Source of the DNA: TM7 phylum sp. oral taxon 349
GTDB taxonomy: Bacteria; Patescibacteriota; Saccharimonadia; Saccharimonadales; Saccharimonadaceae
Direction: 5' to 3'
Length of the DNA: 64,000 nt
Assembly: GCA_018127705.1 (NCBI GenBank)
Contig: CP072328.1
Span: 186,001-250,000 of the forward strand
Shown: in pieces, positions 6,357-45,063 of the stretch
Position numbering within the stretch: position 1 is the first letter of the stretch
Layout of the letters: the number at the start of each line of letters is the position of its first letter
The notes under the pieces: generated by a model
Database searches by the model: none
The model's input: the letters and a program-made list of their open reading frames with translations, nothing else
What the model was told of the DNA's origin: nothing
Made by a program: the position numbers and the translations under genes

Positions 6357-8855
6357 GTGAGTAGTTTATTGTCAAAGAAGAAGCAGTCAAAAATGAAACC
6401 AGCACGCATGGGGCGCTATGCAAATCTAGGGCGGCAAAAATCGCCACGCCATCGTTCAAAGTGGACACCACCAGGTAAGTTTGGTGAATTTGTGACGTGG
6501 TGGCGCGGACTTCCGCTAAAGAAAAAAATAGCATTTATCACATTGCCGATTCTCGTCTTTTTGATTGTTGTACCGATCGTTACCTATGTTATGCTCGCAA
6601 ACGATATTAAGGATCCAGAACGGTTGATGAACCGTAATAATACTGGTATTGTGCTGCAAGATGTGAACGGCAAATCATTTTATAGCGTGGGGCGGGCGGA
6701 GCATCGTAATGATGTAGCACTTGCAAACATTTCCGATAGTATGAAAAAAGCGTTGATTGCCAGCGAAGACAAAGATTTCTATAAACACGGCGGTTTTAAT
6801 CCGCTGAGCATCTTGCGCGCGCTGGTGACACGAACGGGCGGCGGCTCAACACTGACGCAACAGCTCGTGAAAAACACTCTGCTGAGCGATGAGCGCAGTT
6901 ACTTCCGCAAGTATCAGGAGCTCTTTATGGCAATCGCCGTAGAACAAAATTACTCGAAAGATCAGATTTTGGCAATGTATTTAAATTCAGTATACTTTGG
7001 AGAGAATGCGTTTGGTATTGAAGAAGCTGCAAAAGTGTATTTTAATACGACGCCAGATAAACTTGATATAGCGCAAAGCGCGATGCTCATCGGGTTGCTG
7101 CCTGCGCCGACCGCGTATTCGCCAATTAGCGGCAATAAAAATTACGCGAAAGAGCGTCAAAATACCGTGCTGTCGCGTATGGTAAAAAACGGTTTTATCA
7201 CGGAGGATCAGAAAAATGCTGCTGCTGCCCAAGAACTTGTGTACGGCGCAGGTGCGAAGAAAAACGAAACGTCAATCGCGCCGCATTTCGCGGAAATGGT
7301 AATTAACCAACTGAGTAAAAAGTACGGTTACGAAAAAGTCATGCGTTCGGGCTATCAGGTAAAAACAACGCTTGATTTATCGGCGCAGAAAACACTAACG
7401 GATAACATTGTTGCGCAAATGAAATATATTAACCGCATGGGCGGCAGTAATGCGAGCGGTGTTGTCGTTGACCCGACAAACGGCGAGATTCGCGCCTTGG
7501 TTGGCAGCGCTGATTACGGCAACGAAAAGTGGGGCAAGGTCAATATGGTAACGACAGCCCGACAAACGGGGTCAAGTTTTAAGCCGATCTATTACGCAAA
7601 TGCTCTTGCTGATGGCGTTATTACGCCCGCAACTGTATTTGACGATAAAGTGAAAGATTTTGGCGGTGGGTATGTGCCGCGCGATGCTGATCGCCGCGAG
7701 GCAAGCCGCGGTAAGGCATCGGTGCGCCAGGCGCTCAATTGGTCTCTCAATATTCCGAGCGTAGAGGTTATGCAGAAATACGGTATTTCGAAATCAATTA
7801 GCACTGCTAAAAATCTCGGCATCACCACGCTAAGTGATAATACGAGTAGTTACGGTTTATCGCTGGCACTTGGTTCGGCGGAAGTTCCGTTGGTTGAAAT
7901 GGTGAACGCATATGCAGCGTTTGCAAACAACGGTCAGCAATACGACGTGACTATGATATCGGAGATTAACAATAAGTTCGGTAAGCAAATTTTTGCACGT
8001 GAGCATAAGGGTAAACAGGCGATTAGCCAGCAGGGAGCATACTTGATTTCAAATGTACTAAGTGACGCTGCGACGCGTGCTCGGATTTTCGGCTCATCAA
8101 TTACAGTACCTGGCAACCGTACGGTAGCGGTCAAGACCGGTACAACGAACGACAACCGCGATGCTTGGACTATTGGCTACAATCCGCAATATGTCGTCGG
8201 CGTATGGGTTGGTAATAACGACAATACTGTGATGCGTAGTGGGGGCAGCGACATGGCGGGCCCGATTTTCAAAGGTACGATGTCGGCATTATTGAAAGGT
8301 AAGGCTGATGTAAAATTTAATATACCAAATGGTATAGTGCAGCGCGCTGTTTGCCGTGAGAACGGTGGGTTGGCGGTAAAAGCGGGCGGTAATACCTACA
8401 ACGAATATTTCATGAGCGGCGCATTGCCAACCGAAAGCTGTAACGCTGAGCCGACAACTGTAAGCGTTTGTAACCTCGCGACAGGCAAAGTCGAGTCTAT
8501 AAAAGAAGACGAATTTAATGAATCGAAATACTCAAAAGACACAGCAAACTGTAAAGCAGCGACTGAACAAGTCTGTGACCTGTCAACTGGAAAAGTCATA
8601 TCAATCAACGCAAATGAATACGATAGTACAAAGTATTCGCGCGACACTGCAGATTGCGCCAATAACCAGCGTGTCGCTGTTTGCGATACGCAAACGGGCA
8701 AGATTGTTACAATACCAAAGACGCAAGCGGTTAATTCGCGCTATTCGCGCGACACTGCAAACTGTGTTGCAAAAGAAAAGGATGATAACTCTAATGATAA
8801 TACCGGAGGTAATGAAGATAATAATAGCGGCAACACGGCGCCAACTAATCCGTAG
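6357..8855 (+). CDS. Class A penicillin-binding protein (PBP1-type) with C-terminal cysteine repeats
   Basis: 832 residues from the GTG at 6357, 8 bp after the ruvC stop; the longer frame upstream overlaps ruvC and is not believed. A basic cytoplasmic N-terminus and one membrane helix (FITLPILVFLIVVPIVTYVM) precede the glycosyltransferase-51 domain (EDKDFYKHGG near 137, GGGSTLTQQLVKN) and the transpeptidase with SSFKP near 407, SLN near 465 and KTGT near 592. Beyond the catalytic part lie three tandem modules beginning VCxxxTGK at 8466, 8571 and 8679, each ending Y-S-(K/R)-D-T-A-(N/D)-C, then an Asn/Asp-rich tail. It polymerises and cross-links peptidoglycan outside the membrane. Confidence 0.93.
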   Translation: MSSLLSKKKQSKMKPARMGRYANLGRQKSPRHRSKWTPPGKFGEFVTWWRGLPLKKKIAFITLPILVFLIVVPIVTYVMLANDIKDPERLMNRNNTGIVLQDVNGKSFYSVGRAEHRNDVALANISDSMKKALIASEDKDFYKHGGFNPLSILRALVTRTGGGSTLTQQLVKNTLLSDERSYFRKYQELFMAIAVEQNYSKDQILAMYLNSVYFGENAFGIEEAAKVYFNTTPDKLDIAQSAMLIGLLPAPTAYSPISGNKNYAKERQNTVLSRMVKNGFITEDQKNAAAAQELVYGAGAKKNETSIAPHFAEMVINQLSKKYGYEKVMRSGYQVKTTLDLSAQKTLTDNIVAQMKYINRMGGSNASGVVVDPTNGEIRALVGSADYGNEKWGKVNMVTTARQTGSSFKPIYYANALADGVITPATVFDDKVKDFGGGYVPRDADRREASRGKASVRQALNWSLNIPSVEVMQKYGISKSISTAKNLGITTLSDNTSSYGLSLALGSAEVPLVEMVNAYAAFANNGQQYDVTMISEINNKFGKQIFAREHKGKQAISQQGAYLISNVLSDAATRARIFGSSITVPGNRTVAVKTGTTNDNRDAWTIGYNPQYVVGVWVGNNDNTVMRSGGSDMAGPIFKGTMSALLKGKADVKFNIPNGIVQRAVCRENGGLAVKAGGNTYNEYFMSGALPTESCNAEPTTVSVCNLATGKVESIKEDEFNESKYSKDTANCKAATEQVCDLSTGKVISINANEYDSTKYSRDTADCANNQRVAVCDTQTGKIVTIPKTQAVNSRYSRDTANCVAKEKDDNSNDNTGGNEDNNSGNTAPTNP

Positions 8856-41416: not shown

Positions 41417-41608
41417 ATAGCGCTATAATTATACCAGACATACGCATGGATTTCTAGCAGTTTCGACGTTGGGTGCGGCCGTTTAGTTCAGAACAGCTAT
41501 AAATTTACTCGCGCTTTACGCTTGCTCTATGACATTTGGCGTATCCGATGCCTAGTGTAACTTGAGGCAGAATCTATTTGGCGAAGCGTAAATACTATGA
41601 AACTTTGC

Positions 41609-42445: not shown

Positions 42446-42486
42446 GCATAAAATTATGCCATGTTTTAATAAAAATGCAATATACT

Positions 42487-42517
42487 GCGGTGGCAATTAT
42501 CCCATTGAAACAAGTGT
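42487..42517 (+). repeat. 31 bp inverted repeat, left arm
   Basis: Begins GCGGTGGCAATTATCCC; its complement is at 43982-44012 with 29 of 31 bases matching (AA here against GG). The pair bounds a 1526 bp segment. Confidence 0.93.
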
Positions 42518-42583
42518 ATGGGCGTCTAAGCGTAAATGCTTATGATTTGCTATTGGATTAGTTGATATTATAATTTTTAGTAT

Positions 42584-43018
42584 ATGGATGAAAATGAGCA
42601 AATAGAGATATTGAAATCAACGCTCGCTGAGCAGCAACGTTTTCACGACGAACTAACGAATTCGTTTGACGACACAAAAAATAGAATTGTTGTTTATATC
42701 GGTGCTATTCTGGCGGGACTTGCTTTTTTATACTCTGGTGCAATAGATACATCAAAAGGCGTTCGGGAGCGCTTGTTTATTCCGGAAGAGCTATACGGTA
42801 TTATATTCTACTTTTTTGGACTAACGTGCATCCTATACGCGCTTTTTGTACTAATTCGTGCGATGAAGATGGATACTCAATGGGAGGTATATACTGACAC
42901 TTCTGACCGTAGAATTATAGGTAGTATAGATGATCGGCTTACAAAGCGAGAGTATCTTCAGGAGATGGTCAATGGTTATGAGGATGCGAGTGAAAAAATC
43001 TCAAATCCCATAAAATAA
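42584..43018 (+). CDS. Two-helix membrane protein, unknown
   Basis: 144 residues: a charged helical N-terminus (about 1-28), two membrane helices (about 31-50 and 68-92) joined by a short loop, and a cytoplasmic C-terminus with coiled-coil character. TATAAT lies about 9 bases before the ATG. Size and layout resemble small effector or holin-like proteins of defence loci, which is only analogy. Confidence 0.6.
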   Translation: MDENEQIEILKSTLAEQQRFHDELTNSFDDTKNRIVVYIGAILAGLAFLYSGAIDTSKGVRERLFIPEELYGIIFYFFGLTCILYALFVLIRAMKMDTQWEVYTDTSDRRIIGSIDDRLTKREYLQEMVNGYEDASEKISNPIK

Positions 43019-43061
43019 AATATCTAGCTGTTCAAAATGCTTTTCTCCCAATGATTGCTGG

Positions 43062-43199
43062 TGCTATAATATTAGTAGTGCTAAGGTTCTTTCAATAAAG
43101 CACTAGGAAGGGTATACTAGTAACTATGAAAAAAACCTACGGAGCCGGCGCTTAATTAGCGTTCATTGTCGCAAAAGCCCCATTCATTGGGGCTTTTTT
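43062..43199 (+). ncRNA. Short terminated transcript with possible 9-residue peptide
   Basis: Extended -10 TGCTATAAT (43062-43070) would start a transcript near 43077. It opens with a TAGTGCT/AGCACTA hairpin (43076-43105), contains a second TATACT just before ATG 43126 of a 9-codon frame (MKKTYGAGA, 43126-43155), and ends at a clear terminator, AAAGCCCC/GGGGCTTT plus T6 (43174-43198). Small RNA or leader peptide; no downstream gene explains it. Confidence 0.5.
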
Positions 43200-43216
43200 A
43201 TGCTAAAATACTAATT

Positions 43217-43311
43217 GTCTAGATCCATAATGAGGCTCATTTTTTATCCCGAGAAATGGGCAGCCATTTGCACTAAAGCAATAGGGATAAAACCTTGTTG
43301 TGGGTCTAGAC
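43217..43311 (+). ncRNA. 95 nt long-hairpin RNA, novel
   Basis: An extended -10 TGCTAAAAT (43201-43209) puts the start at 43216-43217, exactly the first base of a nested fold: GTCTAGA-t-CC with GG-g-TCTAGAC, then AATGAGG with CCTTGTT, then TTTTATCCC with GGGATAAAA, and at the tip AAATGG-gcag-CCATTT beside an unpaired stretch. It is not SRP RNA (no GGAAGCAGC). The one-long-stem shape recalls 6S RNA, but it is half the size. Confidence 0.6.
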
Positions 43312-43431
43312 AGCTTATCGTGTAGTATTATACAATCTATAATCATTTTATGCAAGTCTATTATGCATACAGTTAATAATCCCTTTTTCGTTTAAAGGGG
43401 TAGCGCAAAGAATTGTCACTTGCTATAATTA

Positions 43432-43480
43432 GAAGTGACAAGATCGCCTACCCGCTATACATCAGCGGGTATTTCTTTTA
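43432..43480 (+). ncRNA. ~45 nt RNA, 5' half antisense to the adjacent tRNA-like anticodon arm
   Basis: Extended -10 TGCTATAAT at 43421-43429 predicts a start at about 43436. The 5' part lies in GAAGTGACAAGATCGCC (43432-43448), identical to 43541-43557, which is the non-template face of the anticodon arm of the minus-strand tRNA-like gene, so this RNA would be its perfect complement. It ends in a perfect terminator TACCCGCT/AGCGGGTA (43449-43471) and TTTCTTTT. It may instead be the relic of an attachment site. Confidence 0.5.
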
Positions 43481-43506
43481 CCGTCTTTTGTTTTAGCTGT
43501 ATGTTT

Positions 43507-43581
43507 TGGTGGAAATGCGGGGAGTTGAACCCCGATCCGCGAAGTGACAAGATCGCCATTTTACCGTTAAACTACATCCCC
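43507..43581 (-). tRNA. tRNA-like gene with expanded anticodon loop
   Basis: 75 nt on the minus strand with acceptor GGGGATG/CATTTCC, D-arm GTTTAACGGTAAAAT, T-arm CGGGG-TTCAACT-CCCCG, A73 and encoded CCA. The anticodon arm is 18 nt: GCGA/TCGC pair, then a T:T opposition, leaving an 8 nt loop CTTGTCAC (10 nt if T:T is open). Read from the 3' side the anticodon is GTC (Asp) followed by A37, but Asp tRNAs have G73; read from the 5' side it is TGT. Functional identity uncertain; may be a pseudo-tRNA. Confidence 0.6.
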
Positions 43582-43599
43582 ATACGTTACAGCCTTAAC

Positions 43600-43648
43600 A
43601 AAAAAGGCACGGATGATACGCCCTTCTCAGGGTATAGACATCCGTGCC
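43600..43648 (-). terminator. Terminator or attenuator just upstream of the tRNA-like gene
   Basis: Minus strand: GGCACGGATG / CATCCGTGCC perfect 10 bp outer stem (43648-43606) with an inner ATACCC/GGG-g-TAT stem, then six T (43605-43600). Only 18 nt separate it from the tRNA 5' end, too little for a promoter. A TATAAT at 43699-43694 could start a leader near 43687. Confidence 0.7.
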
Positions 43649-43771
43649 GTACACGTAAATTTCCGGTTACCGATTTATTAAAATACTTATCCTATTATAC
43701 ATCTTTTCTATGCTTTGCGGATGGCTATTTCTTAATTGTTATAATTAGTATAGATGTAATAAGGAGTTTAT

Positions 43772-43981
43772 ATGCAAAAATTGTACGTAACGAGCGTGTC
43801 ACAAAACGGAAGTAATTATAATCTTGGTATCAAAGTACCAGAGTCAACGGACAAAGATAGTACAGAAGGGTTTGCGATGGGTGTAGATTTTGTTCTGCAA
43901 GCTTTTGAAGCAAATCCTAGACTCCAAAATCAAATTATTCAAACGCTGAGAGATAGCGATATCATCCAAGTTCTAGATTAG
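43772..43981 (+). CDS. 69-residue acidic protein
   Basis: AAGGAG seven bases before the ATG and an extended -10 (TGTTATAAT, about 43736-43744). Starts MQKLYVTSVSQNGSNYNLGI; no helix or signal; an amphipathic C-terminal half. The stop codon abuts the right inverted repeat. Unknown. Confidence 0.65.
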   Translation: MQKLYVTSVSQNGSNYNLGIKVPESTDKDSTEGFAMGVDFVLQAFEANPRLQNQIIQTLRDSDIIQVLD

Positions 43982-44012
43982 ACACTTGTCCCAATGGGAT
44001 AATTGCCACCGC
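43982..44012 (-). repeat. 31 bp inverted repeat, right arm
   Basis: Complement of 42487-42517 with two mismatches. On its outer side the bases CCACCGCGGTGG (44007-44018) form a 12 bp palindrome. Confidence 0.93.
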
Positions 44013-44071
44013 GGTGGTAGCTATCGGGCGCTGAGCAATAATGCGATACCGCTATGCGCTATACTGGATAC

Positions 44072-44938
44072 GTGAAAGCAAGAAGCAGCGGCAACCATAT
44101 CTTAGCGGTGAGCGGCGGCGTTGATTCGGTGGTAATGCTCGATATGGCGCACTGTCGCTACGGTGCAGCGCGGCTGATCGTGGCGCATTTCGACCACGGT
44201 ATCCGTCCGGAATCGGCAGCGGATGCGCGGTTTGCGGCAGCGCTGGCGACACGATACGGCTGTGTATTTCGGACGCAGCGGGCGGAGCTGGGCGCGCGTG
44301 CGGGAGAGGATGCAGCGCGGCGGGCGCGGTATGATTTTTTGTACGCTGCGGCGCGGGATTTTCAGGCTGATATTTGGCTTGCGCACCATCAAGAAGACGC
44401 GGTGGAGTCAGTGGCGGTGAATCTGACGCGCGGCACGGGCTGGCGCGGGCTGGCGGTGATGGATCGTCCGGGGCTGTATCGCCCGTTGCTGCACATGACG
44501 AAGCGGGAAATTTACGCGTACGCATGCCGGTATCGCTTGGAATGGGTTGAAGATGAGAGTAATCAAGAAGATAGTTATTTGCGGAATCGCTTACGTCGCA
44601 AAATATCAAAATTGTTATCAAATGACGACCAGGCGCGTATCGTACAGCTGCGCAACAAACAGATTGCCATAAAGCATAAAATGATTGCCGAAACGGCTTC
44701 CCTATTGCCGAATACGCGGCAGGCGCGTTATTTTTTGACGCAAATTCCGCGCGCTATCGCCGAAGAGATGGTACGGATCGTCATTGAGCGGGAAACGGGC
44801 GTACTGGTGGCGCGCCCGCATGCTGCGCGGGCGCTTGCAGCGATTCAGACGCTGCGTATTGGCGCAGTCCACCAGGTGGCGGATGGCGTATATCTAACGA
44901 TGACGAAAAAAGGGTTCACGATTGGGCGGCAAGCGTAA
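44072..44938 (+). CDS. tilS: tRNA(Ile)-lysidine synthase
   Basis: 288 residues from the GTG at 44072. This start is chosen because TATACT (44060-44065) lies exactly six bases upstream, the pattern used by other genes here; the ATG at 44054 would lie before the -10. PP-loop AVSGGVDSVVMLD near the N-terminus, LIVAHFDHGIRPES, AHHQEDAVESV and the ESNQEDSYLRNRLRRKI motif are TilS hallmarks. Modifies C34 of tRNA-Ile2, a candidate for which is at 36105. Confidence 0.93.
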   Translation: MKARSSGNHILAVSGGVDSVVMLDMAHCRYGAARLIVAHFDHGIRPESAADARFAAALATRYGCVFRTQRAELGARAGEDAARRARYDFLYAAARDFQADIWLAHHQEDAVESVAVNLTRGTGWRGLAVMDRPGLYRPLLHMTKREIYAYACRYRLEWVEDESNQEDSYLRNRLRRKISKLLSNDDQARIVQLRNKQIAIKHKMIAETASLLPNTRQARYFLTQIPRAIAEEMVRIVIERETGVLVARPHAARALAAIQTLRIGAVHQVADGVYLTMTKKGFTIGRQA

Positions 44939-45063
44939 CGCACCCGTTCGTTTATAGCTATACTTGATGATAGGCATTTGCCGTCCGAGCATAGTAAAAG
45001 CCTATCAAAAATGATATAGTAGAAAGAGTTTTTCTGATTGTTAACCGAAAGGATGAGGGTTTT

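Follow-up and report, generated by a model that had tools for sequence, protein, structure and literature searches.

The stretch of DNA analyzed here, referred to as the window, comprises 64,000 nt of the TM7 phylum sp. oral taxon 349 genome (assembly GCA_018127705.1, contig CP072328.1, positions 186,001 to 250,000). An initial annotation, made from the sequence, had drawn attention to an island of about 1.5 kb bounded by inverted repeats. As that annotation stated, the island encloses an open reading frame (ORF) for a protein with two transmembrane (TM) helices, a transfer RNA (tRNA) gene behind a terminator-like hairpin, and an ORF of 69 aa, and it has no transposase; the ORF list and a domain search agree and show no recombinase ORF either. 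Between the two protein genes also lie a structured leader RNA, which we call RNA1, and a predicted small RNA (sRNA) gene of about 45 nt that is convergent with the tRNA gene and whose 5′ end complements the tRNA anticodon arm without a mismatch.

A tRNA and a convergent predicted antisense sRNA

The predicted sRNA is encoded on the plus strand. An extended −10 element, TGCTATAAT, at 43421–43429 is followed by a 17-nt guide (43432–43448), the first few nucleotides of which may precede the transcript start, and by an intrinsic terminator with hairpin and U-tract (43449–43480), recognized from sequence and fold. The guide is a perfect complement of the tRNA anticodon arm at 43541–43557 (minus strand), and the duplex energy is −34.7 kcal/mol. 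The element tRNA itself (43507–43581, minus strand) scores 51.6 bits and encodes its CCA end; ARAGORN assigns it an 8-nt anticodon loop with a 4-nt anticodon, tgtc. In this module, at the right end of the island, the 17-nt repeat that links the sRNA 5′ end and the anticodon arm is the sole direct repeat of at least 11 nt. The same kind of repeat is found, with other sequences, in loci L010 (13 nt) and L045 (14 nt), where it is again the sole one of at least 11 nt, and in L067 (14 nt) and L072 (11 nt). The Rfam family Trp_leader matches the sRNA region with 22.7 bits (gathering score of 41; E = 0.034), which we take as chance, and the tRNA also draws a subthreshold match to transfer-messenger RNA (30.7 bits; gathering score of 47).

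A leader precedes the tRNA (43600–43699, minus strand), comprising a −10-like TATAAT (43694–43699), a recurrent motif, and, just before the tRNA, a terminator-like hairpin (43600–43648). By eye, similar leaders precede the tRNAs of L010, L045, and L142a, and L044 has such a leader without a tRNA. A motif resembling CCGGTAA..TTACG, seen before the tRNA terminator at 43648–43674 (minus strand) in the window and by eye in the same four loci, may be a further leader element.

The island is a nonautonomous IS1595-family transposon

A repeat search placed the inverted arms at 42484–42517 and 43982–44015; they are 34 nt long, 91% complementary, and 1,464 nt apart, and the chance expectation for such a pair is about 1e-8 in 5 kb. 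The arms described initially are thus real, and within them the true terminal inverted repeats (TIRs), delimited by the inverted-repeat search and by TIR comparison, span 42492–42517 (plus strand; GGCAATTATCCCATTGAAACAAGTGT) and 43982–44007 (minus strand). The outer 8 nt on each side lie outside the TIRs and constitute a target duplication, ACTGCGGT at 42484–42491 and ACCGCGGT at 44008–44015, with 7/8 positions identical. The arms seemed longer than the TIRs because ACCGCGGT is its own reverse complement, which makes the duplication nearly palindromic.

TIRs of this type are common to IS1595-family transposons of related Saccharibacteria, among them L010, L044, and L045. The end sequence reads GGCAATTATCCCAT...CAAGT, and GGCAATTATCCCAT is found at both ends of the window element and of L010, and with one mismatch at one or both ends of L044 and L045. 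L010, from the same-genus genome G009, is a 2.8-kb element with the same ends and a perfect duplication, TAAGGTGT. Its transposase matches Pfam DDE_Tnp_IS1595 with 109.7 bits and the NCBIfam model with 175 bits (cut-off 75); across the relatives, NCBIfam scores of 175 and 189 bits were obtained. Such ends likewise enclose an IS1595-type transposase in L044, L045, L067, L072, L142, L163, L196, and L213. The duplications are identical at 8/8 positions in L010, L044, L067, L072, L077, L142, L163, L196, L213, and L237, and the ends of L045 have no matching 8-bp duplication. A passage in PMC8101967 describes flanking 8-bp duplications as usual for members of the IS1595 family, and one in PMC12561309 reports an 8-bp duplication for ISApl4. 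The window element shares with this family the TIRs, the 8-bp duplication, and the presence of extra genes between the ends, and its relatives have the zinc-ribbon IS1595 transposase. It differs in being without a transposase and in carrying RNA modules that lack a counterpart in the open-licence literature searched.

Genome G009 contains the corresponding empty site. When the window flanks are joined without the element, they align with G009 over 400 bp free of gaps, with a single target copy, ACTGCGGC, and 90 bp separate the match to the neighboring ORF from that to tilS. A fixed, syntenic copy of the island, which would have spoken against mobility, was looked for at this G009 site, and the site is empty. 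The ORF beside it (G009:C1:704168–705000; L329 and L330) matches the window neighbor in two overlapping pieces, as if frameshifted.

The island is almost certainly a mobile-element insertion, and it is a nonautonomous IS1595-family transposon of 1,516 bp, derived from transposase-bearing elements, which was one of the possibilities raised initially. As a vehicle, it is an ordinary member of a known family. An invertible DNA segment, also raised initially, or a chance inverted repeat would fit the length of the arms; we give these next to no credence in view of the 8-bp duplication, the IS1595 relatives, the empty site, and the missing invertase ORF, and inversion in particular was rejected on the target duplication and the empty site, the ends being those of a transposon. 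Outside the element, a 36-nt inverted repeat that is 75% complementary (41490–41525 and 44929–44964) is probably due to chance.

No ORF of the window element encodes an IS1595 transposase, and there is no match elsewhere in genome G000 at E ≤ 1e-20 (5 of 20 candidates scored); therefore, the window element is classified as a derivative and not as an insertion sequence itself. In L045, the 11-nt sequence GTCTAGACAGC occurs at the end of RNA1 (3678) and again in the transposase leader (4885), so that the two copies flank a segment with the RNA1 terminator, a pair of small ORFs, and the transposase. In the window, GTCTAGACAGC occurs once (43304), and a remnant of the transposase leader is joined there to RNA1; the 29 nt starting there (43304–43332, minus strand) are identical to the L045 leader. 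Deletion between the 11-bp repeats is the simplest account of this arrangement, and the transposase was probably lost in this way.

Recurrence of the module in other loci

The survey of modules covered 316 partly overlapping records (1.9 Mb), gathered nonrandomly through matches to RNA1, the TIRs, the transposase, or the tRNA, and containing 103 distinct ARAGORN tRNAs. Twelve of these tRNAs have a same-strand copy of 11 to 17 nt of their anticodon arm 39 to 63 nt downstream. Apart from these, copies of at least 11 nt occur in a cluster of host tRNAs in L101, once downstream and once upstream, and in L071, once upstream. The twelve modules are distributed over eleven records, namely the window, L010, L045, L067, L072, L142 (two modules, L142a and L142b), L163, L196, L213, L236, and L237. 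In 12/12, the copy covers the anticodon given by ARAGORN, a terminator hairpin follows it on the opposite strand after 0 to 11 nt (by eye), and the resulting predicted sRNA gene stands 39 to 63 nt from the tRNA on the opposite strand; an extended −10 (TGnTAnnnT) ends 2 to 7 nt before the guide in 11/12, there being none in L237.

Nine modules are located within TIRs (window, L010, L045, L067, L072, L142a, L163, L196, and L213). L142b and L237 lie outside the TIRs that were found, the ends of L236 were not resolved, and both L236 and L237 are on IMG/VR viral contigs. Modules outside TIRs (L142b and L237) and on viral contigs are what is expected of a self-standing module. Regarding the compact RNA–protein system suggested initially, it is half borne out, in that an RNA–RNA pair of sRNA and tRNA recurs at the 12 loci; of the two window proteins, the membrane protein is the only one with a known relative (in L236). 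Searches with the window module against phages and plasmids by blastn gave nothing useful, nor did those with the L067 module against phages; patterns of the module tRNAs led to no new module, and exact patterns gave nothing useful in viral contigs.

An inverted repeat of the guide start flanks the sRNA −10 in five modules (window, L010, L045, L067, and L142b) and is not general. A general operator palindrome at this position was rejected, as the score was reached by at most 7 of 200 mononucleotide shuffles in 5/12 modules and by 47 to 200 of 200 in the other seven. L236 has, beside the sRNA promoter, a second partial tRNA-like 3′ end (2020–2046) that resembles that of L213, and modules may recombine with each other.

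These anatomical details bear on the idea that the repeated anticodon segment is an attachment site, or a scar left by a tRNA fragment when an element integrated in the past, and that it has no function as RNA. In favor of this idea, elements commonly integrate at tRNA genes, the tRNA-Gln of L071 (4003–4077) has 23 nt of its 5′ end repeated on the upstream side, as would result if an element had integrated there, and the second tRNA-like 3′ fragment of L236 (by eye) may be read in the same way. A scar would not be expected to have a terminator after 12/12 copies and an extended −10 before 11/12, nor the spacing of 39 to 63 nt, the coverage of the anticodon, and only about 100 bp between the copies. 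We regard this origin as very improbable.

Specificity of the predicted pairing

For 12/12 sRNAs, the own tRNA gives the best duplex among the twelve module tRNAs, with a mean of −26.3 versus −12.8 kcal/mol, the best off-diagonal duplex (−31.1 kcal/mol) being that between the close relatives L045 and the window. Because a match to the own tRNA was the basis on which the guides were selected, this matrix does not independently prove pairing; what it shows is that guides cannot be swapped between modules. Compared with the 91 other tRNAs, the own tRNA is the best partner for 11/12 sRNAs. Within genome G000, none of the other tRNAs in the set of 47 matches the 14-nt guide core with two mismatches or fewer, and host tRNAs were rejected as sRNA targets there on this basis. 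At the level of sequence, complementarity is kept while the sequences themselves differ from element to element, and cognate antisense pairing in vivo is, in our judgment, highly probable.

The element tRNAs

All twelve module tRNAs encode CCA. ARAGORN reports nontriplet anticodons in six of them (tgtc, gt, agtc, agcg, gg, and gc) and triplets in the other six (ggc, agc, atc, cga, gct, and gtc). By eye, there are two recurrent body types, one with the D-loop GGATAGAG and one starting with GGGG. The GGATAGAG D-loop is present in 6/12 module tRNAs versus 6/91 others, four of which are tRNA-Arg, and the module tRNAs that have it do not have anticodons of Arg. In genome G000, the element tRNA scores lowest of the 47 tRNAs, by 0.2 bits. 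When seven module tRNAs were aligned with 67 others, the best-match scores were 18 to 24 for six and 35 for L142b.

Nonstandard anticodons and the location of 2/12 modules on viral contigs would also suit an anti-defense or decoy role, with the element tRNA resisting anticodon nucleases or soaking them up, and the sRNA protecting that tRNA or holding it in reserve for when it is needed. Some viruses encode tRNAs against tRNA-cleaving defense, as stated in PMC12409363. Decoys should, on the other hand, keep the host anticodon loop, which the seven module tRNAs, compared with the 67 others, do not; such a role is improbable.

A possible RNA-only addiction pair

The explanation that we prefer, with a probability of roughly 40%, is that the sRNA silences an aberrant, perhaps mistranslating, element tRNA and that the two form an RNA-only addiction pair. 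Antisense silencing of the cognate tRNA would follow from the anatomy of the module, with the sRNA binding the anticodon arm and keeping the tRNA out of translation. As to the reason for an element to carry a silenced tRNA, we infer that a tRNA with a foreign body and often a nonstandard anticodon loop could be harmful when free, through codon misreading or frame shifting. Upon loss of the element or a stop in transcription, the stable tRNA would outlive the short sRNA, as in a toxin–antitoxin-like module. RNA1 would act apart from the pair, as an attenuator-like regulator, and both proteins of the window element would be cargo. Addiction would explain why the tRNA is intact yet aberrant, why the pairing is private, why modules occur in transposons and on viral contigs, and why some lie outside TIRs. 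In a wider and more doubtful form of this proposal, mobile elements and viruses of Saccharibacteria may carry a two-RNA selfish module, consisting of a poison tRNA with an altered anticodon loop and an antidote anti-anticodon RNA of about 45 nt, which diversify in concert and have private specificity.

Several observations weigh against an addiction pair. The module is missing from L044 and L077, which are TIR-bound, and from nine simpler IS1595 elements; of 20 transposase loci fetched by similarity, nine have ends and no module, one (L142) has both, and ten have no clear ends. In a comparison of whole tRNAs, 7/62 nonmodule tRNAs have downstream repeats of 10 to 15 nt. Five of these belong to tRNA clusters, and the other two (L046 and L113; 10 nt each) have no such neighbor in view. 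The own tRNA of L142a ties in duplex energy with a tRNA-Thr of another genome, and aminoacylation of the module tRNAs is not predictable with confidence. Finally, wherever a module element has retained its transposase (8/8: L010, L045, L067, L072, L142a, L163, L196, and L213), both genes are on one strand and the tRNA precedes the transposase by about 160 to 225 nt, a distance that for L163, L196, and L213 was taken to the beginning of the tblastn match.

This constant place of the tRNA underlies the main rival explanation, control of transposition. The tRNA would be the 5′ part of a transcript running toward the transposase, the antisense sRNA would limit expression in the manner of IS10 RNA-OUT, and sequence diversification would separate groups of elements that do not cross-react. 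The terminator-like hairpin seen by eye before the tRNA in 8/12 modules also fits, as the tRNA would therefore depend on read-through at that point. Evidence to the contrary comes from L045, where a promoter-like sequence for the transposase itself stands between the sRNA and the ORF; from L142b and L237, the modules outside TIRs; and from L236, where the tRNA follows the transposase. Moreover, antisense control needs no full cloverleaf with CCA. In the IS10 RNA-IN/RNA-OUT system, an element-borne antisense RNA is found near the transposase start, and the present sRNA resembles RNA-OUT in this respect; it differs in that its target is a tRNA and in that a second RNA, RNA1, shares sequence with the transposase leader. 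We consider control of transposition less likely than addiction, and both may hold.

With addiction as the working explanation, the nearest kind of known system is the type VIII toxin–antitoxin system, such as SdsR-RyeA and CreTA, in which both partners are RNA and, for SdsR-RyeA, lie on opposite strands. According to a passage in PMC10767807, the type VIII antitoxin RNA is encoded next to the toxin, on the same or the opposite strand. An adjacent predicted sRNA gene on the opposite strand is present in 12/12 modules, the tRNA being a candidate toxin and the sRNA, through its complementarity, a candidate antitoxin. CreT toxins sequester tRNA, as described in PMC8501985. In the present case, by contrast, a tRNA would be the toxin, and a short RNA encoded separately, antisense to its anticodon arm, would act as the antitoxin; no CRISPR part was seen.

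No described counterpart of the tRNA/anti-anticodon pair was found in the open-licence literature searched, and the pair seems to represent a novel type of RNA partnership, the novelty referring to the pair and not to its vehicle. If the proposal is right, a mobile tRNA whose anticodon is the target of a dedicated, cognate antisense RNA would represent a novel means of controlling translation or of turning it into a weapon, set in bacteria with genomes of about 1 Mb, and private tRNA/sRNA pairs could serve as orthogonal tools for switching tRNAs on and off.

RNA1, a structured leader RNA

On the plus strand, an extended −10, TGCTAAAAT (43201–43209), is followed by RNA1 (43214–43314), which folds with a z-score of −6.4. 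A covariance model built from five copies and searched against 392 genomes of the class detected 16 copies in 14 genomes, a total that includes the five input copies. The first ten basal pairs are standard in 154/160 cells, with changes on both sides at 6/10 pairs; for pairs 4 to 10, 108/112 cells are standard as aligned versus 19 to 42 of 112 when the partner is slid by 1 to 3 nt. An intrinsic terminator then follows in 15/15 nonwindow copies and is missing in the window copy. In these 15 copies, the apical loop, GGGC..., can pair with the 3′ arm of the terminator at 9 to 10 of 10 positions. Two points speak against covariation between loop and arm: the loops pair nearly equally well with the arms of other copies (mean of 8.8 vs 9.9), owing to the conservation of loop and arm alike, and the loop is similar to the 5′ arm of the terminator itself.

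The 15 relatives mostly precede small membrane-protein genes, the following ORF having a hydrophobic 19-aa segment (Kyte–Doolittle of at least 1.6) in 13/15 and falling below this value in L045 (1.5) and L068 (1.35). Riboswitches and attenuators generally share the features by which RNA1 resembles them, namely a basal stem, an intrinsic terminator before a gene, and a loop that can pair with the terminator's 3′ arm. RNA1 differs in having no Rfam family match and, in the window copy, no terminator. In the eight loci scanned (window, L010, L044, L045, L067, L068, L072, and L077), Rfam gave no match to RNA1 at gathering score and matched only the tRNAs, and blastn against phages gave no useful match. 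From these sequence features, RNA1 looks like a transcription attenuator, perhaps a riboswitch. It is a candidate new leader class before mostly membrane-protein genes.

In four of the six transposase-bearing RNA1 elements (L010, L044, L045, and L067), the transposase leader is complementary to 10 to 12 nt at the 3′ strand of the RNA1 basal stem. The complementarity is kept in L067 with a different sequence, GGTCTCGATAAC, and the match in L072 and L077 is only 5 to 6 nt. RNA1 may also pair with the transposase messenger RNA, which would be a possible antisense control of the transposase. A second RNA1 copy in G009 (L011, 5621–5718) stands with a small membrane-protein gene beside a large serine recombinase gene, outside any definable IS1595 element. 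A weak model match (32.9 bits; E = 6.5e-5) was seen near an IS1595 transposase in L158 (2681–2747), on a contig titled Acidobacteria. A DNA match in G084 was rejected as merely a similar terminator.

Protein genes and the first predicted transcript

The membrane-protein ORF (42584–43018, plus strand) encodes 144 aa with two TM helices. Its relative, a 162-aa protein, adjoins the IS1595 transposase on the viral contig L236, and the two are 31% identical over 134 aligned columns (E = 4e-13 for the pair). The 144-aa protein has no Pfam or PADLOC match and only weak matches in NCBIfam and PHROGs, and a pattern search of viral contigs gave no relatives. Downstream, at 43019–43098 (plus strand), lies an out-of-frame remnant of a third TM helix, which aligns in another frame with the C terminus of the L236 protein (BLOSUM62 score of 55, vs 10 to 26 for the other two frames).

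This remnant contains TGCTATAAT at 43062–43070, which had been taken as the promoter of the first of three short transcripts. As this −10 lies within a coding remnant, the first transcript is probably an artifact and was rejected as a small RNA. The other two stay predictions, with 43201–43209 preceding a structured RNA with relatives and 43421–43429 preceding the predicted antisense sRNA.

Further along the plus strand, a possible 9-codon micro-ORF, MKKTYGAGA (43126–43155, by eye), is followed by an intrinsic terminator after the membrane-protein gene (43173–43199; sequence, with a hairpin in the fold). L236 has an 11-codon micro-ORF, MTKLNGTSVGA (721–756), in the same place, directly after the related membrane-protein gene and before a terminator. 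The 69-aa ORF (43772–43981, plus strand) has a promoter-like TGTTATAAT just upstream, and searches by sequence, domain, and family found no relatives of its product. In L010, the cargo (7198–8240) includes a SocA/Panacea-domain antitoxin-like gene (37.1 bits) and an unknown partner, which together are a candidate protein toxin–antitoxin pair.

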